Positions 248-19,665 are shown, counted from the first letter of the stretch. The stretch: DNA of 24,535 nt from a virus (IMGVR_UViG_3300020205_001245:1-24535); one strand, 5' to 3'. Made by a program: numbers and translations. Notes: generated by a model not told the origin, from the letters alone.

Positions 248-490
248 ATGGCAAAACAACTCTACTATTACGATAATAAAACAAAGTCAGTATTGGCAGT
301 TGCACCAATCGCTGTAGAAGAATATCCTTCATTGGATAATATCAAAAGGTTTTTACAACACGATATGGGTGTTCTTTCTCCTCTTTCTATACTTACGGTC
401 AATAGCAATTCTTATCTGGACAGACTCAATGTTGGTGAAATGGATGTTTCTAATATAACTAGTGCAGAACTGGATGGTGGTGAATTTTAA
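248..490 (+). CDS. Small virion-associated protein with C-terminal DGGEF tail (80 aa)
   Basis: The protein begins MAKQLYYYDNKTKSVLAVAP and ends AELDGGEF. No catalytic motif or membrane segment is visible, and I do not recognise the family. The last residues match a tail shared with four other proteins in the window (DGG followed by one residue and Tyr or Phe), all of them in fibre or structural contexts, so a virion or assembly role is inferred. The gene starts one base after the previous stop and has no clear Shine-Dalgarno sequence of its own. The next gene follows the TAA with no gap. A possible late promoter box lies at 186-193. Confidence 0.7.
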   Translation: MAKQLYYYDNKTKSVLAVAPIAVEEYPSLDNIKRFLQHDMGVLSPLSILTVNSNSYLDRLNVGEMDVSNITSAELDGGEF

Positions 491-2140
491 ATGTCTGATG
501 TAAAAATCAAAATAAAAAGATCTCTCATCCCCGGTACAATACCAGGAATTCTGTCTCTTGGTGAATTGGCAATAAATATACCAGATAAGAAAATCTATAT
601 TGGTGATGATAGCACAGATGGCAACACACTTATATTTAATGGAGTTTCTGGATCCGGTTCTTCTATAGATGTTTACGGAAAAAATGGAATAACTGTTGAT
701 ACGGATGGTGGGATTTCTCTGGATCTGAAATCTGGATCTTTTTCTACACAGAATATATCAAAATCAGATAAAGTCCCATATTTAGATTTTGAAACAAATA
801 CCACTAAATTTACAAATGCCAGACTTTTATTTACACAAACATTTGCTAATAGCATGTCTGACGGCGCATTTGGTACGGTAGGAGATCAGAGAATAGCATT
901 TGCGATACAAGATGGGAATCCAGATTCATTCGAGATAAAAACTCTACAGAATGGAACTGGTGGAAAATCGGCGATTATAAAAATTGATACAAGTCCAGTC
1001 GATGGATCGCGAATGGATTTGGGATCTACTACACTCACAATAGCACCATCAGAAGAATTAGCGTTGCAATGCTTGGGTGGTCAGATGACTGTTAACACCC
1101 CAACTGTACAGTTTCAGACAAATGATTTAAATTTTACATCAGAAGATACTACTGTATATGGAATTAATACACTAGAAGCAGGCCCAAGCGGAAATATATC
1201 TGTAGACGGTAATCTAATTGTTTCTGGTTATATTGAAACTGGTACTATAGGGGCGCAATTTTCAGAACAAATACGAGACTTGTTTGCTGCTACTTTGGTA
1301 GCAGGTGATAATATTGATATAGATTACAGCGACACCAATAATTCAATATCAATAAGCACACTTGGTAGTGTTTGGGATAGAAATGATGCTACTTTAGCAA
1401 CTGATATTTTTGGCATTCCTGCAGGAACGACAATAGCAGCAGGAACAGATGCAATTACAGTATTAGAAAGAATATTATATCCGTTTCAGCCAGCAACTAT
1501 TTCAACATTTACTATGTCTGGTTCTACAACAGTTGAATTGGGACAAAGTGTTTCAAGTCCGTCTTTTACATGGGTTATTGGGAATCTAGCAAATGCCAAT
1601 ATTGCAACTCTGGCTTGGTCGGGAGTAGCATCAGGAAGTTCTGTGTTCAATCCTGCATCCAATCAAACTGCATACGATCCGGCAATTGGTACAGTCAGCA
1701 GCACAACTGCTGGAGCAACTTTATCATTTAGTCTGACGGTTACTCAGGACGATGTTGCATATTCTAACGCAACTAGTAGCAGAACGGTCACTTGGCGTCC
1801 AAAGATATATGTGGGCCGCTCCACCCAGTCCGATTATACAAATATAACAAATGTAACTGATATAACAGGAGGAACTGATTATTTTGTATCTGGTACATCT
1901 CCTGCTACATCGAGTGGAGGAGCATCAATATCTTCTGGCTCTGGATTTATTTACATTTTAGTACATAGTAGTATAAATGATTTATCTACTTTGAGTATTG
2001 ATCAGACACCCGGACAACTATCTGCGTTTAGTAAGGTATCAAGTTCTCATAGTATAAATAATGGTTATACAAATTCAACCTATAAAGTTTATAAATCAGC
2101 GAATCAATTAACTGGAACTATAAGATTGGATTTTACATAA
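491..2140 (+). CDS. Tail-fibre-like protein with Mtd_N-like start and Ig-like region (549 aa)
   Basis: Probably a virion fibre or baseplate-attached structural protein. Residues 1-50 carry the motif KIKIKRSLIPG...LGELAINIPDKKIYIGD, resembling the N-terminal domain of Bordetella phage major tropism determinant (Mtd_N) and many phage fibres. Around residues 240-252 is GNLIVSGYIET, also found in the next gene. A segment LVAGDNIDIDYSD near 270-285 is typical of phage fibres. From about 330, ERILYPFQPATISTF leads into a beta-rich, Ser/Thr-rich Ig-like stretch, and a second beta-rich part (SGGASISSGSGFIYILVHSS) closes the protein. The end is RLDFT, without the DGG tail of its neighbours. A GGTGG sequence before the start may serve as ribosome binding site. 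Exact position in the virion is unknown. Confidence 0.8.
   Translation: MSDVKIKIKRSLIPGTIPGILSLGELAINIPDKKIYIGDDSTDGNTLIFNGVSGSGSSIDVYGKNGITVDTDGGISLDLKSGSFSTQNISKSDKVPYLDFETNTTKFTNARLLFTQTFANSMSDGAFGTVGDQRIAFAIQDGNPDSFEIKTLQNGTGGKSAIIKIDTSPVDGSRMDLGSTTLTIAPSEELALQCLGGQMTVNTPTVQFQTNDLNFTSEDTTVYGINTLEAGPSGNISVDGNLIVSGYIETGTIGAQFSEQIRDLFAATLVAGDNIDIDYSDTNNSISISTLGSVWDRNDATLATDIFGIPAGTTIAAGTDAITVLERILYPFQPATISTFTMSGSTTVELGQSVSSPSFTWVIGNLANANIATLAWSGVASGSSVFNPASNQTAYDPAIGTVSSTTAGATLSFSLTVTQDDVAYSNATSSRTVTWRPKIYVGRSTQSDYTNITNVTDITGGTDYFVSGTSPATSSGGASISSGSGFIYILVHSSINDLSTLSIDQTPGQLSAFSKVSSSHSINNGYTNSTYKVYKSANQLTGTIRLDFT
2053..2060 (+). promoter_or_regulatory. Candidate T4-type late promoter box inside the 549-aa gene
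   Basis: A second exact TATAAATA lies near the 3' end of the 491-2140 gene. Transcription from it would begin near 2066, about 76 bases before the ATG at 2142, so it could serve the downstream small protein and the large fibre gene. It is inside coding sequence and could be coincidental. A near match (ATAAATC) follows at about 2090. Confidence 0.35.
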
Positions 2141-2141
2141 T

Positions 2142-2549
2142 ATGGCAATTACAGGAACAGTAACCGTAGGAGCAGCAATCGCTCCTACAGCAGAAACGGA
2201 TACATATCCGGTAACCAATCCAAAGTATGGATTGGGTTCTTTGCGTACTGTACAGGCTTTAACAGATAGAAATGATATTTCTTCTGGTCGTAGAGAAGCT
2301 GGAATGATTGTATATGTGACCGATGTAGATAAATATTTCAAATTAAGCGAACCAAATAATGCTGTAGAGAACGACAAATGGACAGAATTGGTGTTTCTAC
2401 CAGCTACTATTGACTCTGGTGGTAATATACATATAGCAGGCAATTTAATTGTTTCGGGTTATATTGAAACCGATACAGGTATTCGCGGAAACACAGATAA
2501 CGAACTGGAATATATTGCTGGAATGGATATGGATGGCGGAACCTATTAA
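2142..2549 (+). CDS. Fibre-associated structural protein with DGGTY tail (135 aa)
   Basis: The protein reads MAITGTVTVGAAIAPTAETD..., then a segment LTDRNDISSGRREAGMIVYV followed by TDVDKYFKL, a pattern I associate with phage fibre and adhesin accessory proteins. Residues 93-113 hold SGGNIHIAGNLIVSGYIET, closely matching the 549-aa protein upstream at both protein and DNA level. The C-terminus is MDMDGGTY, one of the shared tails. The gene begins one base after the previous stop with no obvious Shine-Dalgarno sequence, so coupling or the TATAAATA box at 2053 may matter. It probably belongs to the same structure as its neighbours. Biochemical role unknown. Confidence 0.75.
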   Translation: MAITGTVTVGAAIAPTAETDTYPVTNPKYGLGSLRTVQALTDRNDISSGRREAGMIVYVTDVDKYFKLSEPNNAVENDKWTELVFLPATIDSGGNIHIAGNLIVSGYIETDTGIRGNTDNELEYIAGMDMDGGTY

Positions 2550-2565
2550 TAGAGGAACATGAATT

Positions 2566-5517
2566 ATGTCAGTAATTAAGATCAAACGCGGAACAACAGA
2601 TCCATCCGCAGCAAATGTAACAAATGCTGGAGAATTGGCAGCAAATACTACCACACCCAAGGTGTTTCTTAAGACTGCTGACGATGCTGTCACGACTCCA
2701 ATCTGGGTTGGCGCTCAAATCGAAGCATCTCCTGGCGATTGGACTAGTGCTGTCAAACTACCAACACAAAGCGCAGTCAACACCACCTTTATGCCAAAAG
2801 CTGGTGGTACTTTTACCGGAGTAACTTCCTTCGGTCAAGCCGGCACCGCAGCAGGTGAAATTCGTTTACTAGAAGATACCGATGATGGTGCAAACTATTC
2901 TGCATTCCGTGGTTCTGCTAGAGCAGCAAACATTACTTATGTACTTCCTACAACAGATCCTACTGCTGGTCAAGTATTAGCATCTACTGCTCCAACTTCC
3001 AATGTTGCTACACTTAGCTGGGCAGATGCATCTTCTGCAACCACAGTATCGACTACCTCAGATAACACAAATACTAACAGATATGTGGTATTCAGTACAA
3101 CTGCTGGATCTGGTAAGACTTTATATGTTGATGATACTACTGGTCCATTGGTATATAATCCCTCTACTGCTGCATTAGGATTGGCTGGTAATCTATCAGT
3201 TAGTGGACTTTCTACTACATTAGGAACTACTATTGCCAGTATTCTAACAAACAGTGGAACAGCAAATACTCTTAGCATTGAGCCATATGGGAACATAGAA
3301 TTAACACCAACTACAACAGCTACTTTAACAGGATCACCAACATCATTGGTTGTTACAAATGGCGTTGATGCAACAGGCCAAGTTCAAATTACTGGTGGTG
3401 ATTTGCTATTGAGTGTCAAGACAACAAACGGAGCTACTTATACCCCCGTCAATATAATATTTGAAGGTGCGACCGCTGATGCATATAAAACAACATTAAG
3501 TGTAGTAGACCCAACAGGAAGTCGTACAATTTTATTACCTAATGCATCAGATACTCTTGTTGGTAAAGACACTACTGATACATTAACAAACAAGACTCTC
3601 ACAAGTCCTACTCTTACTACTCCTGCTCTCGGTACACCATCTTCTGGTACTCTCACAAGTTGCACCGGATTACCTATATCCGGATTAACAGCATCTACAT
3701 CAACAGCATTAGGTGTTGGTACTATAGAACTTGGACACGCATCAGATACCACTATCGCTAGAAGTGGTGCGGGTGTAGTAACAATTGAAGGTGTTAATAT
3801 CGTAACAACATCTTCAACAGACACATTAACAAACAAGACTCTCACAAGTCCTACTCTTACTACACCAGCATTAGGAACTCCATCTTCAGGTACTCTTACC
3901 AGTTGCACCGGATTGCCTATATCTGGATTAACAGCATCCACATCAGCCGCATTGGGTGTTGGCACTATAGAACTCGGACACGCAACCGATACAACCATTG
4001 CTAGAAGTGGTGCGGGTGTAGTAACAATTGAAGGTGTTAATATCGTAACAACATCTTCAACAGACACACTAACAAACAAAACTCTAACAAGTCCTACTCT
4101 TACTACTCCTGCTCTCGGTACACCATCTTCGGGTACTCTTACTAGTTGTACTGGATTGCCTATATCTGGTCTGACCGCATCTACATCGACCGCATTAGGT
4201 GTTGGTACCATAGAACTTGGACACGCAACAGATACTACAATTGCCAGAAGTGGTGCGGGTGTAGTAACAATTGAAGGTGTTAATATCGTAACAACATCTT
4301 CAACAGACACATTAACAAACAAGACTCTTACAAGTCCTATTATTACAACAGGTCTTACTACTGGTAGTGCAACTTTTAATCTTCTTAATACCACTGCGAC
4401 TACTGTTAACTTTGCAGGTGCTGCTACTACAGTTTCTATAGGTGCTGCTGGTAGTGGTACTACAACAATCAATAGTGAGGATACCGTCATTAGTGGTGAC
4501 TTGGCAGTAAATGGTGGATACATCGTTACAAACCAAACATCTGCCAATATATTTAATGGAACTGCAACAACAGTAAATGCGTTTGGTGCTGCAACAACAT
4601 CGAATATTGGTTATATTAGTACTGGAACATCCACTACAAATATTTCAACTGGTGTTGCTGCAAGTACTTTTACCAAAACAATCAACATTGGTACAGCAAG
4701 TGCAGCAGGATCTACAACGAATGTGACAATTGGTTCATCCAGTGGCACATCTACTGTAACAATCAATGGTAACTTAACAGTCAGTGGCACAACCACAACT
4801 GTCAATACAACCAATCTTGATGTTCAAGATAAGAATATTACATTAGGAAAGGGAAATACATCAGACGCCGGCGCTGATACTGCTGGTATTACCGCAGATG
4901 CAACCAGCCCAAAGACTTTGCAATATGATAATACAAATACTGCTTGGACAAGTTCAGAAAACATGAATATTGCCACCGGCAAAACATATAAAGTTGCTGG
5001 TACAAATGTATTGACTGCAACTGCTCTTGGTTCGGGTGTAGTCGGATCATCGCTCACATCAGTTGGTACAATCGGAACAGGTACATGGCAAGGTACTGTT
5101 ATAGGATTGACATATGGTGGTACTGGCAAAGCACTCACCGCTGTAAACGGTGGTATAGTTTATTCGGATGCTGATAGTTTCGAAATTCTTGCAGCTGGTA
5201 CAAGTGGATATGTTCTAACTTCTCAAGGAGCTGGTGCTCCGCTTTGGGTAAATGCTACAGATGCAAACACCGTTTCTACTTTTGTAAAGAGAGATTCTTC
5301 TGGTAATTTCTCTGCTGGCACGATATCAGCAGCATTGACTGGAACCGCATCAAATGCTTCAGCAGTGACTATGGCGAGTTCTACCGATACCACTTCTTAC
5401 CTTACATTCGTAGAAACTAACTCGGCAACAAGTCAAGGATTGAAATATAACTCTTCGTTGTTATACAACGCTACTACTAATTACCTTGATGCAAACATTG
5501 ACGGTGGAACTTATTAA
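2566..5517 (+). CDS. Large repetitive tail-fibre protein (983 aa)
   Basis: A long Thr/Ser/Gly/Ala-rich fibre. Residues 1-50 carry the Mtd_N-like start MSVIKIKRGTTDPSA with GELAANTTTPKVFLK. The middle holds three tandem 81-residue repeats (residues 338-580) built on DTLTNKTLTSP and GTPSSGTLTSCTGLPISGLT, plus the start of a fourth. Next come LLNTTATTVNFAG modules and INGNLTVSGTTTTVNTT leading to DVQDKNITLGKG. Then GTWQGTVIGLTYGGTG and AAGTSGYVLTSQGAGAPLWV are followed by FVKRDSSGNFSAGTI, all hallmark segments of phage tail fibres. The end is NIDGGTY, a shared tail. GAGGA about nine bases before the ATG is the ribosome binding site. It is most likely the main host-contact fibre, but neither its attachment partner nor its receptor can be read from sequence. 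Confidence 0.88.
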   Translation: MSVIKIKRGTTDPSAANVTNAGELAANTTTPKVFLKTADDAVTTPIWVGAQIEASPGDWTSAVKLPTQSAVNTTFMPKAGGTFTGVTSFGQAGTAAGEIRLLEDTDDGANYSAFRGSARAANITYVLPTTDPTAGQVLASTAPTSNVATLSWADASSATTVSTTSDNTNTNRYVVFSTTAGSGKTLYVDDTTGPLVYNPSTAALGLAGNLSVSGLSTTLGTTIASILTNSGTANTLSIEPYGNIELTPTTTATLTGSPTSLVVTNGVDATGQVQITGGDLLLSVKTTNGATYTPVNIIFEGATADAYKTTLSVVDPTGSRTILLPNASDTLVGKDTTDTLTNKTLTSPTLTTPALGTPSSGTLTSCTGLPISGLTASTSTALGVGTIELGHASDTTIARSGAGVVTIEGVNIVTTSSTDTLTNKTLTSPTLTTPALGTPSSGTLTSCTGLPISGLTASTSAALGVGTIELGHATDTTIARSGAGVVTIEGVNIVTTSSTDTLTNKTLTSPTLTTPALGTPSSGTLTSCTGLPISGLTASTSTALGVGTIELGHATDTTIARSGAGVVTIEGVNIVTTSSTDTLTNKTLTSPIITTGLTTGSATFNLLNTTATTVNFAGAATTVSIGAAGSGTTTINSEDTVISGDLAVNGGYIVTNQTSANIFNGTATTVNAFGAATTSNIGYISTGTSTTNISTGVAASTFTKTINIGTASAAGSTTNVTIGSSSGTSTVTINGNLTVSGTTTTVNTTNLDVQDKNITLGKGNTSDAGADTAGITADATSPKTLQYDNTNTAWTSSENMNIATGKTYKVAGTNVLTATALGSGVVGSSLTSVGTIGTGTWQGTVIGLTYGGTGKALTAVNGGIVYSDADSFEILAAGTSGYVLTSQGAGAPLWVNATDANTVSTFVKRDSSGNFSAGTISAALTGTASNASAVTMASSTDTTSYLTFVETNSATSQGLKYNSSLLYNATTNYLDANIDGGTY
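3577..4350 (+). repeat. Three tandem 243-bp coding repeats plus a partial fourth
   Basis: Repeat units start at 3577, 3820 and 4063, exactly 243 bases apart (81 codons). A fourth start at 4306 diverges after about 15 codons. The protein copies are nearly identical (for example TSTALGV versus TSAALGV, HASD versus HATD), while the DNA copies carry many silent differences. A 66-base block is identical in all three (3760-3825, 4003-4068, 4246-4311). Copy-number change by recombination would stay in frame. Confidence 0.95.
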
Positions 5518-5536
5518 TAATTAAAGGAAATATATC

Positions 5537-5758
5537 ATGAATGAAGTGAATTATAATGAAACGGTGATTTTGCCTTATTTGCAAAGAAAATATCAAGAAG
5601 CAGCCAATTCTAATTTAATATTAGAGGCTACTTTATTGGTAGAACAAGCAAAAAACAAAGATTTGTCTATAAAATTACAACAAATGACAGAACTTCAAGT
5701 TGCCCCTCCTAAAAAGAAGAAGTCGGCCGAGTCTGTATTGGATGCGGATACTTACTAA
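5537..5758 (+). CDS. Small coiled-coil virion-type protein (73 aa)
   Basis: The protein MNEVNYNETVILPYLQRKYQ... is predicted helical, with heptad-like hydrophobic spacing through about residues 10-50 (LILEATLLVEQAKNKDLSIKL). A short basic linker PPKKKKS follows, and the end is VLDADTY, a looser version of the DGGxY tail on neighbouring proteins. A good Shine-Dalgarno AAAGGAAA precedes the ATG by about eight bases. It sits between two fibre genes, so a connector or assembly helper that uses the C-terminal peptide is a reasonable inference. No family recognised. Confidence 0.7.
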   Translation: MNEVNYNETVILPYLQRKYQEAANSNLILEATLLVEQAKNKDLSIKLQQMTELQVAPPKKKKSAESVLDADTY

Positions 5759-5764
5759 ATAGTG

Positions 5765-5792
5765 TTGACTTCATTGATCATGTTGATATAAT
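5765..5792 (+). promoter_or_regulatory. Sigma70-type promoter (TTGACT, 16 bp, TATAAT)
   Basis: TTGACT at 5765-5770 and a perfect TATAAT at 5787-5792 are separated by 16 bases. It lies in the 54-base gap before the 351-aa fibre gene, whose ATG is at 5813. The architecture is the same as the promoter before nrdJ at 19682, including the 16-base spacer and the GATATAATG around the -10. A host-type promoter in front of a structural gene suggests early or constitutive transcription, which would be unusual for a fibre. Confidence 0.65.
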
Positions 5793-5812
5793 GAAATTAT
5801 CTGGAGTGATTT

Positions 5813-6868
5813 ATGGCATCAAAGATATTAGTTAAACGCGGAACCGCCGCACCTGCAGCTGCAGCATTGACGCAGTACGAATTAGCAGTAGATACTACCA
5901 ATAAGCGCACATACATTGGTGCAGCCGACGGTTCTGGTATTCTTGTTGGATTTGGTACTGCTACTTCAGCTGAAATGGCAAGCATTGTAACTGATGAAAC
6001 AGGTAGTGGTAAATTGGTATTTGGTACTTCTCCAGAAATCTTAACCAGTTTAACTACAACAAGCGCATCATTCGATTTACTGAACACAACAGTTCGTACT
6101 TTGAATATTGGCGGATTTGCCAGTACCATAAACATATTGGGAACAACAGATGCTGCTGCTCTTTCCACCTATGATATAAACATAGGAAATGCTATACTCA
6201 CCCCTACTGTTGGTAGTGCTACTAAAAATATAAGCATTGGTGGAGATGCCGCATCCCCTTCTATTACTAACATAATTTTAGGTGGTAGAAATTCAGGCGG
6301 CACCCTGATAACTTCACCAGGCACTATTGCCGTTACTGTGTTTGGAGGTTTGGATCTATCACAAACAGTTAGTCTTCTTATGCCAAGTTCATTTACTGTT
6401 GGCAATTCACCATTACAAATTAGTGGTACTGGAATTAGTATGGCAAGTCCTGGTGAAAGTTTCATACGAGACACCTCAGGAAATGGGTTGAATATAGGAG
6501 ACAATTCAGATGGTGCTCCAATAAAAATAGGTGATTATGCTGACACACATGGCACTAGTACTATATTAACAATAGATGCTAGTCTTGAAACCATTTATTT
6601 AGCAGCAGCAAATGGTACTAGTGTTGATGGGTTGCTTAATTTAAATACTCAAGCAGAACTTAGATTCTATGATTCTGATAGTTCTAATTATGTTGGATTT
6701 AAATCGCCAGCAACCGTCACTGCAAATAAAATGTGGATACTTCCCTCTGCTGATGGAACTTCTGGTCAAGTATTAAGTACAAACGGCTCTGGCACTCTAT
6801 CTTGGGCAAGTAGCATTGAAAATTCTCCCGCAGAAAATTTAGTATTATTCGATATAGGAATTATTTAA
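5813..6868 (+). CDS. Tail-fibre-like protein, third Mtd_N-like paralogue (351 aa)
   Basis: The start MASKILVKRGTAAPAAAALT with YELAVDTTNKRTYIGAADG is the third copy of the Mtd_N-like N-terminal motif in this cluster. Residues 82-105 (SFDLLNTTVRTLNIGG then FASTINILG) match the LLNTTATTVNFAG modules of the 983-aa fibre. Near the end, PSADGTSGQVLSTNGSGTL followed by SWA is a common phage fibre segment. The end is LVLFDIGII, lacking the DGG tail. GGAG seven bases before the ATG gives a ribosome binding site, and a sigma70-type promoter lies just upstream. Probably a shorter fibre or a fibre subunit that assembles with the larger ones. Confidence 0.8.
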   Translation: MASKILVKRGTAAPAAAALTQYELAVDTTNKRTYIGAADGSGILVGFGTATSAEMASIVTDETGSGKLVFGTSPEILTSLTTTSASFDLLNTTVRTLNIGGFASTINILGTTDAAALSTYDINIGNAILTPTVGSATKNISIGGDAASPSITNIILGGRNSGGTLITSPGTIAVTVFGGLDLSQTVSLLMPSSFTVGNSPLQISGTGISMASPGESFIRDTSGNGLNIGDNSDGAPIKIGDYADTHGTSTILTIDASLETIYLAAANGTSVDGLLNLNTQAELRFYDSDSSNYVGFKSPATVTANKMWILPSADGTSGQVLSTNGSGTLSWASSIENSPAENLVLFDIGII

Positions 6869-6878
6869 AGGAAATCAA

Positions 6879-7262
6879 ATGGCAACAACAGCACAATACA
6901 CATCACAACCACTTGTCGAAGGATCTACTACAGCAACCACAGCATCAACTACTATTGCAGCAGCATTAGCAACAACTGCGGCAGCAGGAGTTGGTAAAAG
7001 AATTATTCGAGTGTATTCAACTATCCCAACAACAAATACAGCAGGTAAACTTAGTTTATATGTTACAATCAGTGGAACTGATTATTTGATTGCAGAACGG
7101 GCAGTTGCAGCAAACACAGTCGGTGCTACTACAGCCGCATTGAGAGTTGAATTTCCAGAAGCCGTTGGTATGGTTCTTCCCGGCGGTACTACCACTTCAT
7201 TGAAAATTACCAATGGATTGAATGTTACAATCAATAATACTGTGGAGAGCGGCTTATTATGA
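6879..7262 (+). CDS. Small Thr/Ala-rich virion-type protein (127 aa)
   Basis: A protein of small residues, beginning MATTAQYTSQPLVEGSTTAT, with a beta-rich core (KRIIRVYSTIPTTNTAGKLS, then LYVTISGTDYLIAE) and no Cys. Its composition matches the adjacent fibres. AAAGGAAA lies about six bases before the ATG. The stop overlaps the ATG of the glycine-rich adhesin gene, so the two are likely co-translated and may work together. I do not recognise a named family. A small structural or trimming subunit of the fibre tip is possible. Confidence 0.7.
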   Translation: MATTAQYTSQPLVEGSTTATTASTTIAAALATTAAAGVGKRIIRVYSTIPTTNTAGKLSLYVTISGTDYLIAERAVAANTVGATTAALRVEFPEAVGMVLPGGTTTSLKITNGLNVTINNTVESGLL

Positions 7263-8344
7263 ATAATGGTTTTTTTGGTTTTCCTTCTTCTTTAGATTCA
7301 AGTGTAATAGATATCAAAGAATTTGATATTAGTGGTGTATATACTGTACCACCAAACACAAAAAGACTTATTATATTTGCTGTGGGTGGTGGTGGTGGTG
7401 GTGCAGGAGGAGTTCGTCTGGTCGGAAACGGGTGTTCTGGTGGTGGTGGTGGCAATTCTGCAAATTTTGTGCTGTCTGAAATAGATAAAAAATCATTAAA
7501 TGGAATAACTACATTAAATATTATAATAGGAGCCGGTGGATCTGGTGGTGCAGGTTCGGCATCAAATGGTGCAGCAGCCTCTAATGGTGGTGGTGGTGGC
7601 GCAACAACGATTGGGATTTCTGGTAAAAAGAATCCATTTATATCCGCTGCTGGAAGTCAATATGGTTATGCTGGATCGACTGCATTTGGCCCAAACTCAC
7701 AAGCAGCTTCTGGAGTTAGTGCGGGAATATCTTTAATGTTTGGTTCTGTTGTATTTGGTGAGTTTGGGTTAACTCCTGGAACCAGCACCGGACCATTTTA
7801 CACCGGCTCCACACTTCATCCTGCATTAACCTCTGTTAATGACGGCGTTGGTGGCAGAGCAGGAAGAGGTACAACTGATTCAGTTGGTGGAACAGTGCAT
7901 GTTTTTTCTCCTTTGAGTTGTGCTGGTGCTGGTGGTGGAGGAGTATCTTATACCACAGTCCCTGGCACCGCACAAACTGGAGGTGGTATAAAATTTATGA
8001 ATGCTTCTAGTGCCGATTTCAGTGCAGATAGTAAAGTATATAAATCTGTATTTTCTTCCTGTCTGTCTGGTGATTATTCTCCAGGCGATGTTGTTTATTC
8101 TGGTGGTGCAATAAATACGGCAACTGCTCCTATAAACTCGAATCAGATGATTTGTCCAGATTGTATGTTTAGTGCAGGATTTGGAGGAGCCGGTGGTGGT
8201 GGAGGTGCATCAACTTCTGCAAACAATGGAGCAAATGGATATCGTGGAGGTGGTGGAGGTGGTGGAGGTGGTTCTAAGAATGTTGCCGCTGGTAATGGTG
8301 GTGCTGGTGGAAACGGTTATGTAAAGATAGTTGCAATCGGATAA
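7259..8344 (+). CDS. Glycine-rich tail adhesin-like protein (361 aa)
   Basis: The N-terminus carries FDISGVYTVPPNTKRLIIFA followed by six consecutive glycines, the pattern of phage glycine-rich domain proteins. Glycine runs recur at roughly residues 42-50, 60-65, 110-115, 221-226, 306-315 and 329-338, and the chain ends GGNGYVKIVAIG. Spaced glycine runs around variable loops recall the polyglycine layers of gp38-type adhesins at the tips of T-even long tail fibres, but I see no direct homology to gp38. There are several Cys, including ICPDC. The ATG overlaps the previous stop. A receptor-binding tip protein is the best guess. Tandem GGT codons make slippage-based length change possible. Confidence 0.7.
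   Translation: MNNGFFGFPSSLDSSVIDIKEFDISGVYTVPPNTKRLIIFAVGGGGGGAGGVRLVGNGCSGGGGGNSANFVLSEIDKKSLNGITTLNIIIGAGGSGGAGSASNGAAASNGGGGGATTIGISGKKNPFISAAGSQYGYAGSTAFGPNSQAASGVSAGISLMFGSVVFGEFGLTPGTSTGPFYTGSTLHPALTSVNDGVGGRAGRGTTDSVGGTVHVFSPLSCAGAGGGGVSYTTVPGTAQTGGGIKFMNASSADFSADSKVYKSVFSSCLSGDYSPGDVVYSGGAINTATAPINSNQMICPDCMFSAGFGGAGGGGGASTSANNGANGYRGGGGGGGGGSKNVAAGNGGAGGNGYVKIVAIG
7385..7402 (+). repeat. (GGT)6 trinucleotide tract in the adhesin gene
   Basis: Six perfect GGT units encode a glycine run. Shorter tracts occur at 7439-7453 and near 7585-7600, and mixed GGT/GGA runs near 8190-8200 and 8247-8273. Gains or losses of one unit keep the reading frame and would lengthen or shorten glycine runs. 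Confidence 0.85.
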
Positions 8345-8348
8345 AAAA

Positions 8349-8549: not shown

Positions 8550-8571
8550 TATATTTTAATATGGAGATACA

Positions 8572-9378
8572 ATGAAATTTTATATGTCATATTGGTCAAA
8601 TGGCTATTATGGTGAATTGGATGAATATATGTTGGACATACATCGGTTAAGTGTCCATTTAATTAATAAACATTATGGCGAGTGTCATTTAATAACAGAT
8701 AGCAATTCAAAGAAATATTTTTCGGAATTGCCTTTTGCTTCAATTTCTACCCACTTGGACACTGTTCCAGTACAAAAAAACAATTGGGCATTAGGTAAAT
8801 TATATGCTTATAAATTTTTAAGCGAAAATAATATTCCTTTTTGTCATATAGATTATGATGTGTTTTTGTGGAAAAGTTTACCAGAAAACTTATTAAAAAG
8901 TGAAGTTTTTTGTCAACATAAAGAAGAAAAAGTATACGATTTATATAGCTTTTATATGTTAAAAAAATATAATATTAATACTCATTTAATAGATAAAATA
9001 CCAGATAGAAATGAAAAGACAATTGCATTTAATGTTGGTATTTTTGGTGGAAATAACTTAGAATTTATTCAAAAATATTCTTCTAGTGCTATTGATTTTG
9101 CTATAGACAAACATAATCAAGAATGCTATAATGAAATTTCAAAGGTGCAAAAGCATCCAATACCTTGTATTACTGAACAGTATTATCTGTATGTTTGTTC
9201 TCAAAAATTTAATCAAAATGTAGAGTTTTTATTAAATGGAAAAATGCAAGATTATGAGAACGAAGCATCTGAATTGGGTTATACACATTTGATAGGGTAC
9301 AAATCTCACCCAAAAACAAAAGAAGCAGTTTATTTGAAATTATATGAGCACGGATTAAAGGAGCTAAAAGATTCATGA
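8572..9378 (+). CDS. DUF6734-like glycosyltransferase (268 aa)
   Basis: The order of conserved segments fits a GT-A-type glycosyltransferase related to DUF6734: MKFYMSYWSNGYYG at the start, HLITDS (residues 39-44), NNWALGKLYAYK near 70-81, the metal-binding DxD motif in CHIDYDVFLW (D94-Y-D96), and NVGIFGG in the middle. Donor and acceptor sugars cannot be told from sequence. GGAG lies six bases before the ATG. A paralogue follows immediately with a 4-base overlap. The codons are more A/T-rich than in the replication genes, which hints at separate acquisition. Being next to the adhesin genes, it may glycosylate virion proteins or host surface glycans. Confidence 0.7.
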   Translation: MKFYMSYWSNGYYGELDEYMLDIHRLSVHLINKHYGECHLITDSNSKKYFSELPFASISTHLDTVPVQKNNWALGKLYAYKFLSENNIPFCHIDYDVFLWKSLPENLLKSEVFCQHKEEKVYDLYSFYMLKKYNINTHLIDKIPDRNEKTIAFNVGIFGGNNLEFIQKYSSSAIDFAIDKHNQECYNEISKVQKHPIPCITEQYYLYVCSQKFNQNVEFLLNGKMQDYENEASELGYTHLIGYKSHPKTKEAVYLKLYEHGLKELKDS

Positions 9379-10202
9379 AATTTTATATGTCATATTGGTC
9401 TGGTGGATACCAACAAATACCACAATCATACATCATTGACTACCACAGACTATCTGCACATTATTTAAAAAAACACTATGGAGAAGTTCATTTAATAACA
9501 GATAGTGTTGGAAAGGATTCTTTAGAAGATGTTGGATATACAACAATAAGTACAGAATTGGATTCTTTGCCAGCAAATTTAAATTGGGCTTTAGGTAAAC
9601 TATACTCATATCGAAAATTGGCTCAAATTGGTGATCCTTTTTTGCATGTTGATTATGATGTTTTTGTTGAAAAACCATTTCCTGAAAATAAATTAACATC
9701 TACAGTTTTAGTGCAAAGTGTGGAAAAAATACTTCCGCCAGATAGATGGTACGATACAGACACATTTTATAATTTATGTCCTAATATTGGTTATTGCAAT
9801 AGAGATGATACAAATGATCATTCATACAATACTGGTATTTTTGGTGGAAATGATTTAGATTTTATTTACAAATATGCAAGTTCTGCATATGAATTGTCAG
9901 TAGATCCTGCAAATCAAATTGGCTATCAACAAATGAACAATAATGCAATTGGTCTATGTTTTTATCTTCCAACCATATTTTTAGAACAATATTATTTGTA
10001 TCAGTGTTCAAAACATTTTAATGTTTCGATAACGACATTGTTGAATGGCGGTGACTACGACAAACGATGGTTCGAAAGTAGTAGACGGGAATTAGAATAT
10101 TTTCATGTAACAGATATTGATGGAGGTATACCAAAAAACCATCAAAAACTACTTGAAATGATCCAAAGAAAATTAGTTTATGAGGGTGTGATTGTTGCTT
10201 AA
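9375..10202 (+). CDS. DUF6734-like glycosyltransferase, tandem paralogue (275 aa)
   Basis: This shares with the preceding gene the opening MKFYMSYWSGGY, YHRLSAHYLKKHYGEVHLI then TDS, ISTELDSLP, NWALGKLYSY, the DxD motif in HVDYDVFVEK (D93-Y-D95), a NTGIFGG motif in place of NVGIFGG, and EQYYLYQCSKHFN near the end. The first 26 bases of the two genes are identical, pointing to a tandem duplication or gene conversion. The ATG overlaps the upstream stop (ATGA). The proteins have diverged in their central acceptor-side regions, so they may act on different acceptors or in sequence. The donor is unknown. Confidence 0.7.
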   Translation: MKFYMSYWSGGYQQIPQSYIIDYHRLSAHYLKKHYGEVHLITDSVGKDSLEDVGYTTISTELDSLPANLNWALGKLYSYRKLAQIGDPFLHVDYDVFVEKPFPENKLTSTVLVQSVEKILPPDRWYDTDTFYNLCPNIGYCNRDDTNDHSYNTGIFGGNDLDFIYKYASSAYELSVDPANQIGYQQMNNNAIGLCFYLPTIFLEQYYLYQCSKHFNVSITTLLNGGDYDKRWFESSRRELEYFHVTDIDGGIPKNHQKLLEMIQRKLVYEGVIVA

Positions 10203-13565: not shown

Positions 13566-13669
13566 CAGATTCTATTATAATTGCTGTTTTGTTTTTTGCT
13601 TTTATTGGTATGACTTTTGGTTTATTGAGTTTTGAGATTGTGAGGAACTCATGCAGAAAAAAGAATTGA
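13562..13669 (+). CDS. Very small single-pass membrane protein (35 aa)
   Basis: The ATG at 13562 overlaps the polymerase TGA (ATGA), the joining used throughout this operon. The product is MTDSIIIAVLFFAFIGMTFG followed by [15 protein letters not shown]: one hydrophobic helix of about 20 residues and a basic end, predicting an inner membrane protein with the C-terminus in the cytoplasm. It overlaps the next gene by 19 bases. No family is recognisable at this length. Support comes from overlap and composition only. Confidence 0.5.
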   Translation: MTDSIIIAVLFFAFIGMTFGLLSFEIVRNSCRKKN

Positions 13670-13839
13670 GTAAAATTGCAAAAGAAATTATTGAAAATTG
13701 TTTGATCCTAAGACACACCGATCTTCAGTATAAACTCAAAGGAAATCTGAAACACATTGATCTAGCAACACTAGATCTCATTACAAACGAATCACGCAAT
13801 ATAGAAATTACATTGAAAGAAATGAAGGAATTATTATGA
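13651..13839 (+). CDS. Small helical hypothetical protein (62 aa)
   Basis: [20 protein letters not shown]... ending TLKEMKELL is charged and likely all-helical, with no motif I recognise. GTGAGGA precedes the ATG by about seven bases. The stop overlaps the UvsX start (ATGA). It lies between the polymerase and the recombinase, so it may be an accessory replication or recombination factor, but nothing in the sequence shows this. Confidence 0.65.
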
Positions 13840-14903
13840 GTTTTCTAAAAAATATTATAAAAGAGTCCAAGAATGAATTCGCAAGCATCGTTGAAGACGG
13901 CATTGAAGGCAGTGACATCAAGGGATTCGTGGACACAGGGAGCTATTCTTTTAATGCTCTTCTTTCTGGCTCTTTGTATGGTGGGATGCCTGATAATAAG
14001 ATCATGGCTATTGCTGGCGAAAGTGCAACTGGCAAAACTTATTTCACGCTAGGAATTGTCGGACAGTTTTTGAATGATTTTCCTGATGGAGCAGTGCTGT
14101 ATTTCGATACAGAGCAAGCAGTCACCAGTTCCATGTTTAAAGAACGAGGCATCGATCCTAATCGCATCGCTGTGTTTCCAGTGAACACAGTAGAAGAGTT
14201 CAGACACCAAGCAGTAACCATCTTGGATTCTTATTTGGCTCTTTCCCAAAAGGAAAAGAAGCCAATGATGATTGTATTGGACAGTCTTGGTATGTTGTCC
14301 ACCAATAAGGAAATGGCAGACACGGCAGAAGGTAAGACAACCAAGGACATGACACGCGCACAGGTGATTAAAGCCACCTTTAGAGTGTTGACTCTGAAAC
14401 TTGGTAAAGCAAATGTGCCACTGATTATGACAAACCACACTTATGACATAATCGGTTCGATGTATCCAACGAAAGAGATGGGTGGTGGATCTGGTCTTAA
14501 GTATGCAGCATCTACTATCGTATACCTCTCCAAGAGAAAAGAGAAGGATAATGATGGTAGTGTAGTGGGAAATGTGATACACTGCAAACTGTACAAGGGT
14601 AGAATCACCAAGGAAAACAAGATGGTTGATGTCATGTTACGATATGACAGTGGATTGGATCGTTATTACGGGTTGGTTGATTTGGCTATCAAATACGGAA
14701 TCTTTAAGAAAGTTTCTACTCGTATTGAATTGCCAGATGGAAAGACGGCGTTCGAAAAGAATATCCGTGAGAATCCAGAAAAGTATTTCACAGATGCAGT
14801 AATGGTCAAACTTGAAGACGCTGCAAGACAAGAATTCAAGTACGGTATGCAGTCTGCCGGCGATGAGACTGTTTCAGAGGATCTAGATGAGCCAACTGAA
14901 TGA
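13836..14903 (+). CDS. uvsX: UvsX-type RecA-like recombinase (355 aa)
   Basis: Strand-exchange protein for recombination-dependent replication and repair. Walker A is GESATGKT (residues 61-68), followed by a RecA-type FDTEQA with the likely catalytic Glu at 93. Walker B is MMIVLDSLG (144-152), and [11 protein letters not shown] (about 216-226) fits the L2/ATP-sensing region. The end is acidic ([13 protein letters not shown]), as in other single-strand-binding partner proteins. It is somewhat shorter than T4 UvsX (391 aa). It overlaps its neighbours at both ends by ATGA, so it is translated with gp41. I see no separate UvsY or gp32 in this window. Confidence 0.93.
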
Positions 14904-16318
14904 GCATAGAAAAAATCATATTGGAGAACTTACTAACAAATGAAATATATGTTAGACGAGTTCTACCATTCATAAAAGAAGAATACTTTCAAGAAAGAAA
15001 CGACAAAGCAATTTTTCGTTCCATTCAAGATTTCTTCATCACCTATAACGGCTTGCCTAGTCAAGATGCAATCAAGATTGCAATATCAAATCGCACCGAC
15101 TTAACTCAAACAGAATTTGAGACTATTAGTTCTAACATTGGTGCGTTTGATGTTACGACAAAACAAGATGATGCATGGTTGCTACATGAGACTGAAAAGT
15201 TTTGTAAGGATAAGGCAGTGTATAATGCCATATTGGAATCCATTCATATCATTGAAGGGAAGTCCAGTAACAAAACCACCACATCGTTGCCTTCTATTTT
15301 GTCCGATGCGCTTGCTGTTTCTTTTGATAGTAATGTTGGTCATGATTACTTGAAGGATGCAGAAAAGCGATACGACTTCTACCACACAGTAGAGAAGAAG
15401 ATTCCGTTTGATCTTGAATACATGAATCAGATCACAAATAGTGGCACTCCACAAAAAACATTGAATATTGTTATCGCAGGAACCGGAGTAGGTAAGTCTC
15501 TGTTCTTGTGTCATCATGCAGCAAATTGCATGATGCAAAACAAAAATGTTCTATACATCACATGTGAAATGGCAGAAGAGAGAATTGCCGAACGCATTGA
15601 TGCAAACATCATGGACACCACTCTTGATGATCTGAAACTGTTGACCAAGGACATGTATGCCAAGAGGCTGTTCAATGCAACTAGAGGTGTGCTAGGAAAG
15701 CTAATTATAAAAGAATATCCTACTGGCACAGCAAATGTCAACCATTTCAGACATCTATTAGATGAACTTAAATTGAAGCGAAAGTTTATTCCAGATATCA
15801 TCTTTATTGATTATCTGAACATATGCTCGTCTAGTCGATTCAAAGCAGCAGTTGTGAATTCGTACACTTATATCAAGGGTATTGCAGAAGAACTGCGAGG
15901 ACTTGCGGTAGAACAAAATGTACCAATTTTCTCTGCTACACAGACGAACCGAGATGGATATACCAATACAGATCTTGGATTGGAAAATACATCAGAATCG
16001 TTTGGATTGCCACAAACTGCAGATTTTATGTTTGCTCTGATTAGAACAGAAGAACTTGATCAGATGAATCAAGTGATGGTAAAGCAGTTGAAGAATCGGT
16101 ACAATGATTTGGCGTCCAATCGAAAGTTTATGATAGGAATCAATCGATCAAAGATGAAACTGTTTAATGTAGACGAATCTGCTCAGATAGGATTGATTGG
16201 TGCCGGTGCAGAAAATGAAGTGGTTACGAAAGAACAAGGATTTGGTAATAAGTTTAAGCGCAAAGGGTATGGAGATAAAGTAAAGTCTTGGCAATTTGAG
16301 GATAAAACAAATGAATGA
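14900..16318 (+). CDS. 41: Replicative DNA helicase, T4 gp41 / DnaB family (472 aa)
   Basis: Hexameric 5'-3' helicase that works with the gp61 primase. The N-terminal helical domain (residues 1-150) resembles that of DnaB proteins ([20 protein letters not shown]). The RecA-like core has Walker A AGTGVGKS (193-200), a catalytic Glu in TCEMAEERI (E223), Walker B IIFIDYLN (300-307) and the Gln sensor in [11 protein letters not shown] (Q348). Length matches T4 gp41 (475 aa). The ATG overlaps the UvsX stop, and the stop region overlaps a 47-aa gene. A basic tail ([13 protein letters not shown]) ends the protein. Confidence 0.95.
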
Positions 16319-16454
16319 ATATAAGCAACTACAATTTATTAAAGAAGATGATGTCCGCACATTTGACGAACGAATGGCTGCTTTGCCGGCTATTCGCGAT
16401 GAAGACTTTCCGGAGTGGAAAGAATGGGCAGAACACACCTTGCAGATTAACTAA
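16311..16454 (+). CDS. Small acidic hypothetical protein between helicase and primase (47 aa)
   Basis: The sequence ATGAATGA at the end of the helicase gene gives two ATGs. The one at 16311 opens a coherent acidic frame: [20 protein letters not shown]... to EWAEHTLQIN. It ends at 16454, two bases before the primase ATG, so it fills the gap exactly. The aromatic and acidic residues (FPEWKEWAE) suggest a small folded or partner-binding peptide. A role with the gp41/gp61 primosome is a guess from position. Confidence 0.6.
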   Translation: MNEYKQLQFIKEDDVRTFDERMAALPAIRDEDFPEWKEWAEHTLQIN

Positions 16455-16456
16455 AC

Positions 16457-17452
16457 ATGTCATTAATTATTGATAAAAAATACATCAATCTTGTTTCTTC
16501 TTCTCTTGATATGTTTAAGTGGAAGGGTGAGACACTAGCTAATTGCCGTTGTCCTATTTGTGGAGATTCTGAAAGGAATAAAACTAGAGCAAGAGGGTAT
16601 TTTTATTCAAAGAACAATGATATGTTCTATAGATGCCATAACTGCAGTGCATCAACAAACATCTATAGGTTCTTGGAGACAGTATCCCCTGCACTCTGCA
16701 GGGAGTATTCTCTTGAACGATGGAAGTCCGGAGAAAACGGACATTCCAACTACAAGAAGCCTGAGATAAAGATTGAAGCCCCTAAGTTTGGTAGAAAGAT
16801 AAATTTGCCATCTGTCTCTAGTTTAGAGGCAGATCATCCTTGCAGACAGTATGTCGTAAAAAGAAAAATTCCACAACACTTATGGAATACTCTGTATTAC
16901 GCAGAAAACTTCTCAGAATTTGTAAAGAAACTGATTGATAAAGAAGTTGGTGAAGAACCTAGACTTATTATTCCTATATTGAATATACGCAAGGAACTTA
17001 TAGGGTTTCAAGGTAGAGCATTGGATAACAATGCGCTTCGGTATGTTACTATTAAATTCGATGAAAACGATAAGTTGTGTTTTGGTATTGATCAGGTGGA
17101 TCTGAATTCTATTGTATATGTTTTGGAAGGACCATTGGATTCTTTGTTTATACCAAATGGAGTAGCAATCCTTGGTATGAACCATGAAATTGATACATCA
17201 GTGTTTGCTAAAAGCAAATTGATTTATGTTCTAGACAATGAACCACGCAACAAACATGTGGTTCAGCAATATCATAAATTAATAAATACTGGTAAGACTG
17301 TGTGTATCTGGCCAGATAGTATAACTGGTAAAGATGTTAATGATATGATTTTGCGAGGAAGAAGTCCAAACGAAATCAAGAAACTTATAGATCATAACAC
17401 ATATTCTGGTCCGGAAGCAATGTTTAGATTCACCAAATGGAAGAAGGTCTAA
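16457..17452 (+). CDS. 61: DNA primase, T4 gp61 type (331 aa)
   Basis: Makes RNA primers for lagging-strand synthesis with gp41. The N-terminal zinc finger is CPICGDSERNK (C32, C35) and YRCHNC (C60, C63). The Toprim-type catalytic centre has LEGPLDSL (E224, D228), the acidic LDNEP (D260, E262) and GKDVNDM (291-297). Length is close to T4 gp61 (342 aa). It follows the 47-aa gene with a two-base gap and precedes the acidic protein by one base. No helicase domain is attached, as expected for T4-like phages. Confidence 0.93.
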   Translation: MSLIIDKKYINLVSSSLDMFKWKGETLANCRCPICGDSERNKTRARGYFYSKNNDMFYRCHNCSASTNIYRFLETVSPALCREYSLERWKSGENGHSNYKKPEIKIEAPKFGRKINLPSVSSLEADHPCRQYVVKRKIPQHLWNTLYYAENFSEFVKKLIDKEVGEEPRLIIPILNIRKELIGFQGRALDNNALRYVTIKFDENDKLCFGIDQVDLNSIVYVLEGPLDSLFIPNGVAILGMNHEIDTSVFAKSKLIYVLDNEPRNKHVVQQYHKLINTGKTVCIWPDSITGKDVNDMILRGRSPNEIKKLIDHNTYSGPEAMFRFTKWKKV

Positions 17453-17453
17453 A

Positions 17454-17819
17454 ATGGCAGATTACAAAGACGAACATGAGGACGAATATTATGAAGACGA
17501 AGACGAGATTGAATCAGATGATCCGGAAGAAACTTCACAGTTCCCAACAAGCTATACCGAAGAATCAGACGAAGATTCAGAAGTTGTTGACTTGGGAGAC
17601 ATTGAAATCGAATTCGACGGGTTGAGTGAAGAGCAACAAGCATGGATCATAACAACAGAAGCTATTGCTGAATTTGGTATAAAATTTGCAGAATATATCA
17701 AAGAAATAGATCCTGAAATGTGGAAACGCGCCAGAGATTATGCAATGGATTATGTGCAAATTGATGGCGTAGAATTTAAATTTGGTGATGAGGAAGAAAA
17801 TGGAAAACCTAAAGATTGA
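17454..17819 (+). CDS. Highly acidic protein of unknown function (121 aa)
   Basis: Asp and Glu dominate the first 60 residues (KDEHEDEYYEDEDEIESDD). After this comes a likely folded helical part (QAWIITTEAIAEFGIKFAEY, then IKEIDPEMWKRARDYAMDY) and a short acidic end. There is no recognised domain, signal or membrane segment. A disordered acidic arm joined to a small helical domain could bind basic proteins or mimic DNA. The gene sits directly behind the primase and overlaps thyX by 20 bases, so it is expressed with the replication genes. Function unknown. Confidence 0.8.
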   Translation: MADYKDEHEDEYYEDEDEIESDDPEETSQFPTSYTEESDEDSEVVDLGDIEIEFDGLSEEQQAWIITTEAIAEFGIKFAEYIKEIDPEMWKRARDYAMDYVQIDGVEFKFGDEEENGKPKD

Positions 17820-18471
17820 TGTTCTTGATAAAGGATTTGTACAATATGTCATGCACATGGGAAGCGATCTTACTGTAGTAAATGCAGCAAGAGTGTCTTT
17901 CAATTCTGAAAGTACTGAGTTTACCGAGAGAGATGGTAAATTAGTAAATTACTTGGCAAAACACAAACATTGGACTCCGTTTGCACATCCACAAATCACT
18001 CTGAGAATCAAAGCACCGATCTTTATTCGAACTCAGCTTTTTAAACACAAAGTTGGATTTGTTGAGAATGAAGTTTCAAGACGCTATGTGTCAGATGCTC
18101 CTGAGATTTATATCCCAAATTGGCGTGGAAAACCAACAAATGGTGCAAAGCAAGGGTCTGAAGATTTTATGCCAATTGATGATGTATACAATACATTAAA
18201 CCGTAGTTATGAAATGACTGCTAAAGATGCTCTTCACACCTATGAAGATCTTCTAGCAAAAGGAGTAGCACCAGAACAAGCCCGTTCAGTTCTCCCACAG
18301 GGGACATATACTGAATGGTGGTGGACTGGCTCTCTTTCTGCATTTGCCAGAGTGTATTCACAGCGAATAGACCCCCATGCACAATGGGAAGTGCGCCAAT
18401 ACGCACAAGCAATTTATGACATCATTCAACCCCTATACCCAGTTTCTTGGTTAGCATTAACTACTAAATAA
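17800..18471 (+). CDS. thyX: Flavin-dependent thymidylate synthase (variant KHK motif, 223 aa)
   Basis: Converts dUMP to dTMP using FAD, NADPH and methylene-tetrahydrofolate. I start at the ATG at 17800, because AGGA at 17791-17794 sits five bases upstream. The signature region is QLFKHKVGFVENEVSRRYV (residues 79-97): the usual RHR-x7-S is replaced by KHK (82-84) with one more residue before the Ser (S93). Later motifs are normal for ThyX: AARVSF (29-34), SLSAFARVYSQR and AQWEVRQYAQAI near the end. It overlaps the acidic gene by 20 bases. Together with dut and nrdJ it makes a complete dTTP supply route. Activity is likely, but the altered signature is untested here. Confidence 0.92.
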   Translation: MENLKIDVLDKGFVQYVMHMGSDLTVVNAARVSFNSESTEFTERDGKLVNYLAKHKHWTPFAHPQITLRIKAPIFIRTQLFKHKVGFVENEVSRRYVSDAPEIYIPNWRGKPTNGAKQGSEDFMPIDDVYNTLNRSYEMTAKDALHTYEDLLAKGVAPEQARSVLPQGTYTEWWWTGSLSAFARVYSQRIDPHAQWEVRQYAQAIYDIIQPLYPVSWLALTTK

Positions 18472-18477
18472 CAATAT

Positions 18478-19665
18478 ATGATCTCTGTATTCTCCTCATA
18501 CAATGCTCCAGAACCGTCTACGATCCACGCTAAGCTCTCCTTGAAGGAAGTTCGGTATGGAGACTCTATGCGGTTAACTGTTGATCTAGGTGATGTTAAA
18601 TCCGGGCGTATATTTAAATTAATACCTTCTCACTTATATGAAGAATTGAAATCTGAGGGTATTCAGGATTATATTGTTAAGTTAAAAGGAATTGGCGAAT
18701 TTTGTTTTTTAGAAGACAGTAATAACGGTTTAACTTTACTAAAAGTAGTAGGTGGACTTGATCCTACTAAACAAATTGATAAATTATTTGAAATTTATGA
18801 TATAAATAAGTTAGATGGTATTAAGCCTGTCGTTGATGTACAACCAGCTATTGTTAAGTCAATACCTGCTCCTAATGTTTATATTCCTCGCGATGTAAAA
18901 GACGGCAAAGATGGAACTAAAGGTGATCGTGGTGATCGTGGTTTTATCGGTGAAAGAGGAGAAAAGGGAGATATAGGACCATCCGGCCCACAAGGAGTAC
19001 CCGGAGAAAGGGGACTAGATGGGATACAAGGCAATAGCGGGGTTAAAGGCGATAAAGGAGATAGTGGTCCTGCGGGAGCAGTTGGCCCTATTGGATTGCC
19101 AGGAAAAGATGGTAAAGATGGAATTCCTGGTGAAAAAGGAATTGCTGGTGCAAAAGGAGATATTGGGCCTCAAGGCATTGCTGGTTTGGCTGGGGAACCA
19201 GGTCCGATTGGTATTCCTGGTCCTAGAGGAGAGAAGGGCGATAAAGGAGATACAGGAAACACGGGACTTTCTGGACTACAAGGTATACAGGGTATACAAG
19301 GACTACAAGGAATTCAAGGTCCTATTGGAAAAACTGGAAAATCCGGTGACAAAGGAATAAAAGGAGATGCAGGAGAACCCGGTGTGGTTTCTGCTAACTA
19401 CCCTTTAAAAATTGATAATACTGTTCTAACATTAGATCAAGCATATCTCACTAAAATCACCGATCAAGTGTCTAATGCAACTGCACAAGGCGGTGGTGGT
19501 GGAAATGTAAGCATATATAAAAACGGACAAAAGGTTTCTAAAGCCGCTCGTTCGATTAATTTTACTGGAAATGTGGAATTAACCACAAATAAAAATAATG
19601 TTACTGTAGAAATTTTATCATCATCATCCACAATTGTTTCGGACTTAGATGGTGGAAATTTCTAA
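18478..19665 (+). CDS. Collagen-like fibre protein with DGGNF tail (395 aa)
   Basis: Three parts can be seen: an N-terminal domain (1-140; MISVFSSYNAPEPSTIHAKL... with KLIPSHLYEEL) that I do not recognise; an uninterrupted collagen stretch of 54 Gly-X-Y triplets (141-302); and a C-terminal domain (303-395) with a glycine run and beta-rich segment, ending DLDGGNF. Collagen stretches in phage proteins form trimeric rods, usually in tail or head fibres. The C-terminal tail matches those in the structural cluster 13 kb upstream, which ties this isolated gene to the virion. No Shine-Dalgarno sequence precedes the ATG, which lies six bases after the thyX stop. Position among replication genes is odd for a fibre. 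Confidence 0.85.
   Translation: MISVFSSYNAPEPSTIHAKLSLKEVRYGDSMRLTVDLGDVKSGRIFKLIPSHLYEELKSEGIQDYIVKLKGIGEFCFLEDSNNGLTLLKVVGGLDPTKQIDKLFEIYDINKLDGIKPVVDVQPAIVKSIPAPNVYIPRDVKDGKDGTKGDRGDRGFIGERGEKGDIGPSGPQGVPGERGLDGIQGNSGVKGDKGDSGPAGAVGPIGLPGKDGKDGIPGEKGIAGAKGDIGPQGIAGLAGEPGPIGIPGPRGEKGDKGDTGNTGLSGLQGIQGIQGLQGIQGPIGKTGKSGDKGIKGDAGEPGVVSANYPLKIDNTVLTLDQAYLTKITDQVSNATAQGGGGGNVSIYKNGQKVSKAARSINFTGNVELTTNKNNVTVEILSSSSTIVSDLDGGNF
18898..19383 (+). repeat. Uninterrupted collagen Gly-X-Y coding repeat (54 triplets)
   Basis: Glycine occupies every third codon from 18904 to 19383 with no break in phase. Typical triplets are GEKGDKGDT and GIPGPRGEK. Near 19275-19320 a simpler run of Gln-Gly-Ile (LQGIQGIQGLQGIQG) is almost repetitive in DNA and looks like a recent expansion. 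Confidence 0.95.

Follow-up and report, generated by a model that had tools for sequence, protein, structure and literature searches.

Introduction

In the long tail fibre of bacteriophage T4, gp36 is reported to bind through its C-terminal end to the N-terminal end of gp37 (PMC9603124), with gp36 trimers binding the gp37 N-terminal region (PMC3004832). T4 gp36, the product of the gene before gp37, ends QDFGYY, and the ends of gp36 orthologues are strongly conserved (QDFGYY, EDFGYY, IDFGTF, IDFGTY, IDFGAY and LDYGTF), each followed by a gp37 that bears the N-terminal domain called here the socket. The present study concerns a viral record of 24,535 nucleotides (nt) (IMGVR_UViG_3300020205_001245:1-24535; the window, meaning this whole 24.5-kb stretch) from a T4-related phage, in which five genes end in one short peptide, called here the tag or, in its proposed role, the plug. 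This shared peptide probably acts as a C-terminal plug through which tail-fibre segments are joined head to tail, with a gp37-type N-terminal domain as its socket. Our best reading is a joint of the gp36-gp37 type that is widespread, that is repeated here into multi-segment fibres and that is carried on adaptors that are not gp36 homologues.

As in T4 and its Straboviridae orthologues, the upstream protein ends D-x-G-x-[YF], the downstream protein starts with a KRS...GELAIN domain, and the two genes are adjacent and in the same order. Despite this likeness, the window plug proteins are distinct from gp36: the PF03903 profile (Phage_T4_gp36) matches none of them, whereas T4 gp36 itself matches at 1e-52. 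The window peptide is mostly DGG, in contrast to the DFG of the T4 type, and the window joint, known here from sequence, would be used several times, in chains of segments with interchangeable bodies.

Two other systems invite comparison. The N-terminal domain of Mtd (Mtd_N) of Bordetella phage BPP-1 likewise belongs to a distal adhesin, encoded directly downstream of a gene of the same cluster, bbp9; however, Bbp9, directly upstream of mtd, ends ...LADLGGIA and lacks the tag. The Mtd_N profile (PF18454) matches 17 of 60 sockets weakly, at E up to 1 (best E 0.0007), with no match to the window fibres at E 0.01, and the socket fold aligns with Mtd residues 5-47 at a weak Z of about 3. This similarity is too weak to place the socket within Mtd_N. 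In Synechococcus phage S-H34, groups of fibre proteins end in identical peptides, but these peptides and the N-terminal domains differ from those described here and the genome has no gp37-type socket. Seven S-H34 fibre proteins (MT162467; L200, L201) end ...DAEL and four end ...NGATVS, which represent second and third kinds of shared end.

A short peptide at the ends of unrelated proteins

Exactly five window genes end in [LIM]-D-[GA]-[GD]-x-[YF]-stop, each in frame at the stop, and none of the remaining window open reading frames (ORFs) has such an end even under a loosened pattern. With the last six residues removed, the five bodies lack significant BLAST similarity to one another (best E 0.17), so that the first-pass annotation was right to describe five unrelated proteins sharing an end peptide. 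It had listed the five ends under the single range 248 to 19,665; they lie where it placed them, but the collagen-like fibre is a separate locus beside a ribonucleotide reductase gene. The tagged proteins and the socket proteins of the window are as follows, with E values for the socket hidden Markov model (HMM) described below.

248-490 (+): adaptor-like protein of 80 amino acids (aa); ends ELDGGEF, plug at 473-490; socket gene directly downstream
491-2140 (+): 549-aa fibre protein; N-terminal socket at residues 5-69 (E 9.8e-21); no C-terminal tag
2142-2549 (+): 135-aa protein; ends DMDGGTY, plug at 2532-2549; gene for the 983-aa socket fibre directly downstream
2566-5517 (+): 983-aa fibre protein; socket at residues 1-68 (E 3.2e-23) and plug NIDGGTY at 5500-5517
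5537-5758 (+): 73-aa coiled-coil-like protein; degenerate plug VLDADTY at 5741-5758; gene follows that of the tagged 983-aa fibre and precedes that of the 351-aa socket protein
5813-6868 (+): 351-aa protein; N-terminal socket at residues 2-64 (E 9.9e-20); no tag
18478-19665 (+): 395-aa collagen-like fibre; ends DLDGGNF, plug at 19648-19665; ribonucleotide reductase gene next

From residue composition, 0.003 such ends would be expected by chance in about 26 genes (P of five or more about 1e-15, for a motif chosen after being seen). Beyond the window, D[GA][GD]x[YFW] stands at the C-terminus of 55 among 1,863 ORFs, where the frequency at internal positions predicts 0.22; this count was made on the first 138 related viral loci in a run that also took in the window and five short loci cut from it. 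With all loci included and duplicates removed, 5,832 unique ORFs have the broader motif at 238 C-termini, compared with 1.26 expected, and the concentration at C-termini that the first-pass annotation anticipated is therefore present in related phages.

The tagged proteins fall into 25 body families (last 100 residues minus the final six, single linkage). Among family representatives, information rises only in the last six columns, which read aliphatic, D, G, G, any residue, and F or Y, and the consensus is [LIVM]-[DN]-[GFYA]-G-x-[FY]-stop; the LDADTY end of the 73-aa protein is a degenerate form. The number of families and the confinement of information to these columns speak for a short peptide that ends otherwise unrelated proteins, and against a common domain.

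The socket domain

Genes directly downstream of tagged genes recurrently start I-K-x-K-R-[SG]...P...GEL-A-x-N. A mixed alignment of these N-termini was too diverse for a pattern search, while a narrower alignment worked. A socket HMM from which T4 was left out detects T4 gp37 at E 2.2e-10, recognizes three fibre proteins in the window (E 1e-20 to 3e-23) and matches 327 ORFs over the loci, at the N-terminus in all of them. Among PHROGs families, socket members match those labelled 'long tail fiber protein distal subunit', and the N-terminus of the window 549-aa protein is 51% identical to T4 gp37 over 39 aa.

AlphaFold2 models predict a four-stranded domain at residues 1-50 of a 93-aa socket-plus-tag protein (predicted local distance difference test, pLDDT, 89-97), with the same strand order in residues 1-50 of the window 549-aa protein when its first 70 residues are modelled (pLDDT 81-90). 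Foldseek with a socket model returns many gp37 models. Against the PDB, Foldseek and VIA-align give only weak matches, which are not used as proof (collagen trimerization domain, Z 3.6; phage hyaluronidase N-terminus, Z 3.4; Mtd as above). The socket profile meets only chance matches among the sequences of solved structures, mostly designed propellers. No PDB relative was found for T4 gp36, and the N-terminal 200 residues of gp37 match only a gp34-type chain, outside the socket.

Gene order and chain grammar

Among 191 unique pairs of same-strand neighbours whose downstream member is a socket gene, 104 have a tagged upstream member, compared with 106 of 3,789 other pairs (odds ratio 41.5, p 1e-91). 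The reverse order, with the tagged gene downstream of the socket gene, shows no such signal (3/147, p 0.63). Around socket genes, position -1 is tagged in 42-78% and positions +1 to +3 in 0-4%. The asymmetry is also present in loci retrieved with socket queries, which involve no selection for tags (-1 tagged in 42% of viral loci and 59% of bacterial genome contigs; +1 to +3 in 0-2%). None of 29 genes before another fibre N-terminal type is tagged.

Whether a socket gene is itself tagged varies with what follows it. Where a further socket lies within two genes downstream, 58 of 64 socket genes carry the tag, and two of the six untagged exceptions end DGGSI. Where none follows in this way, 36 of 129 are tagged, most of them from one P-SSM2-type family; in P-SSM2 itself, the next socket gene is unlinked. 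This grammar matches what would be expected if the tag signals that another segment follows. In the loci compared, the motif, the socket, their order, this grammar and their co-occurrence can be established directly from the sequences.

A proposed joint and two candidate fibre chains

We propose that three C-terminal peptides of one segment or small adaptor, taken as trimeric by analogy, would dock into the N-terminal domain of the next segment. The socket would be a β-strand domain of roughly 50 residues, as at the N-terminus of T4 gp37, and the last six residues are likely to be the contact itself. A protein with socket and plug would be an internal segment, and one with a socket but no plug the distal, receptor-facing end. 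While T4 uses the joint once, from gp36 to gp37, the window phage may use it several times.

Such a joint and chain order would probably hold in the window phage, where the arrangement of genes suggests two fibre chains. In the first, the 80-aa plug would feed the 549-aa fibre, encoded directly downstream and read as a terminal (distal) segment from the presence of a socket and the absence of a tag. In the second, the 135-aa plug would feed the 983-aa fibre, also directly adjacent and read as an internal segment with a socket at one end and a plug at the other; the 983-aa fibre would in turn feed the 351-aa protein, read as terminal, with the 73-aa gene between them. The collagen-like fibre lacks any such adjacency.

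Relatives of the 80-aa protein (77-80 aa) keep LDGGEF or LDGGDF beside a socket gene in three loci (L010, L214 and L420), and a tblastn search of cultured phages with the 80-aa protein gave no match. In the related contig G003, a single 310-aa protein combines the start of the 549-aa protein with the end of the 135-aa protein, the final 43 residues of which match the end of this socket-plus-plug protein at 79%; the window arrangement therefore looks like a split or insertion. The 983-aa fibre belongs to the PHROG virion structural protein family phrog_6002, and its translation (2566-5517) contains three near-identical repeats.

Small genes occupy the same place as the 73-aa gene, between tag and socket genes, in L099, L215, L216 and P-HM1, and are often untagged. 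These coiled-coil-like genes sometimes bear a degenerate tag (LDADTY, LDGQTY or LEGGEF). Their products are possibly trimerisation chaperones, and the degenerate tag carried by the small protein might cover unoccupied sockets until the fibre is assembled.

The collagen-like fibre (Pfam Collagen, E 1e-28) occupies a slot beside the reductase gene that in relatives holds bodies of 74 to 664 aa with the tag at their ends, which indicates that the tag is kept while the bodies change. A search with this protein was swamped by unrelated collagen repeats. Other window genes encode RecA-like, DnaB-like, ThyX and ribonucleotide reductase proteins and a DNA polymerase; relatives of the polymerase occur in 2,580 phage records, some of them from T4-like phages. 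Two tandem genes at 8572-10202 (268 and 275 aa; Pfam DUF6734) are apparent duplicates.

Tags and sockets across cultured phages

Cultured phages mostly have equal numbers of tags and sockets, or neither. Tags and sockets number 1/1 in T4 and 2/2 in each of P-SSM2, S-8S55, Melnitz-3, Mosig and P-HM1, with the Mosig adaptor ending NAGAF and P-HM1 having one extra weak profile match in a frame that lacks a socket at its start. In S-SKS1 (1/1) the two genes lie about 100 kb apart, and the tagged gene adjoins neck genes as in P-SSM2. The cyano- or pelagiphages S-H34, S-PM2, Syn9 and S-RIM8, and the fetched part of HTVC008M, have 0/0. In S-SCSM1 the sole socket belongs to an annotated virion long tail fibre protein, and the sole plausible tag, EIDAGFY under a looser pattern, to another protein with a virion annotation. 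KVP40 and phiM12 have no socket, and the single phiM12 DNA match is not at the end of any ORF found.

In phages with a fusion or replacement of gp36 and gp37 (Aeh1, avDM9-HANS and Lw1, with Vibrio phage D525 similar), tag and socket are both absent from the fibre genes that were read, the fused proteins of Aeh1 and avDM9-HANS being covered as far as the end of the fetched stretch. In DSL-LC03, a single ORF of 443 aa joins adaptor and socket protein; it lacks the junction tag, keeps DGGSY at the far end and is a natural fusion of the two proposed partners. In P-HM1 (GU071101), a gp37-type socket opens the 2,425-aa protein encoded from 70324 onwards, and the annotation of this protein as gp7 baseplate wedge initiator may be wrong.

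The order of the genes, the matching counts in complete genomes, the T4 gp36/gp37 pair and the natural fusions all suggest the gp37-type N-terminal domain of the next fibre protein as the likely partner of the tag. The idea of the first-pass annotation that the peptide is a strict docking signal at the chain end, recognized by partners of one kind, is thus well supported, whereas the baseplate protein, chaperone or protease that it suggested as partner finds no support here and is probably wrong.

Points against the proposed joint and alternative explanations

Several observations weigh against docking into a socket as a complete account. The window has five tagged ends and three sockets, and no socket partner was found for the collagen-like fibre. 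In contig G014 (L179:13699-15495), a 598-aa protein like the gp5 hub/tail lysozyme ends VLDGGAF far from any socket gene. Among the 191 socket genes, 87 have no tagged neighbour directly upstream; some of these have an intervening coiled-coil gene or a variant end, and others are unexplained. In the AlphaFold2 models, which are of monomers, the tail is unstructured (pLDDT 50-60). Furthermore, the loci were picked by related queries and are not phylogenetically independent, so that the p values overstate the evidence.

An alternative that accommodates some of these points, though we consider it unlikely, is that the peptide docks all tagged proteins onto one common virion site, such as the baseplate, collar or hub, with sockets adjoining only through the clustering of fibre genes. 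Tagged proteins without a nearby socket (the collagen-like fibre and the gp5-like protein of G014) and the surplus of tags over sockets in the window are consistent with a common site. However, the strong directional adjacency, with no reverse signal, the chain grammar and the absence of the tag before another fibre N-terminal type speak against it. Tag and socket also co-occur even when unlinked (S-SKS1, P-SSM2), and the gp36-gp37 contact of T4 provides a precedent for direct docking (PMC9603124).

Binding of the tag by a small coiled-coil chaperone (T4 gp57A-like) encoded alongside, and not by the socket, is less likely again. Coiled-coil-like genes of 68-156 aa often lie between tag and socket genes and sometimes carry a degenerate tag, but most tag-socket pairs have no such intervening gene, and the T4 gp36-gp37 contact is described without one (PMC9603124, PMC3004832).

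There is very little to recommend a protease-dependent role, in which the peptide would be cut or recognized as a signal for maturation or sorting, despite the strictness of the chain-end motif and the presence of a trypsin-like lipoprotein gene in the window. A fibre joint alone would account for the pattern in T4 and many tagged phages, a cleavage site would need no adjoining socket gene, and no link was found between the window protease, with its lipoprotein-like N-terminus, and the tagged genes. This trypsin-family gene (22027-22794; Pfam Trypsin), its N-terminus read from the sequence, has a 59% identical counterpart in contig G003.

Descent of the ends from one homologous C-terminal domain, through shared ancestry only, is just as improbable. 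Longer common ends do occur in a few pairs, such as the window 135-aa and G003 310-aa proteins, but the spread over 25 body families, with information confined to the final six columns, the dissimilarity of the five window bodies and the reductase-side slot, which changes bodies yet retains the tag, all argue against it. The possibility raised by the first-pass annotation that the five ends derive from a single domain is thereby set aside.

A DNA-level effect, in which the Gly-Gly codons form the Shine-Dalgarno site of the next gene, can be dismissed almost entirely. A GGAGG-type run does occur in 46 of the 105 tags that are followed by a gene at a distance of up to 12 nt, and in 10 of the 115 others. 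Where the next gene is far, however, GGT or GGC usually encodes the first Gly and the peptide is unchanged; the D and F/Y positions are unexplained, T4 gp36 has DFG, and the collagen gene lies 68 nt from the next start. Such use of these codons is a secondary overlay.

Implications for phage fibre assembly

The gp36-gp37 contact of T4 is known already. For the motif itself, literature searches by motif strings and by terms for a conserved C-terminal fibre motif found no description in phages, though one in a subscription journal is possible. If the tag docks into the gp37-type N-terminal domain as proposed, a broader generalization becomes plausible, towards which we lean slightly: a six-residue C-terminal peptide and an N-terminal domain of roughly 50 residues would constitute a near-universal plug code that couples any tagged body to any socket body. 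This code would be common to T4-like phages, marine cyanophages, pelagiphages and phage-like loci in bacterial genomes, allowing fibres of variable length and composition to arise by gene swapping, with fusions and unlinked genes as natural variants.

An otherwise unexplained end peptide thereby becomes a readable grammar of fibre assembly. From sequence alone, it may be possible to propose fibre segments, their joining order, the distal receptor-facing end and unlinked fibre genes, which would be useful where phage fibres are mostly annotated as hypothetical. Probable fibre genes are already indicated in this way, such as P-SSM2 PSSM2_293 and the 75-aa gene that precedes the 527-aa fibre, and some existing names are called into question, including that of the P-HM1 'baseplate wedge initiator'. 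The proposed joint is also small and testable.

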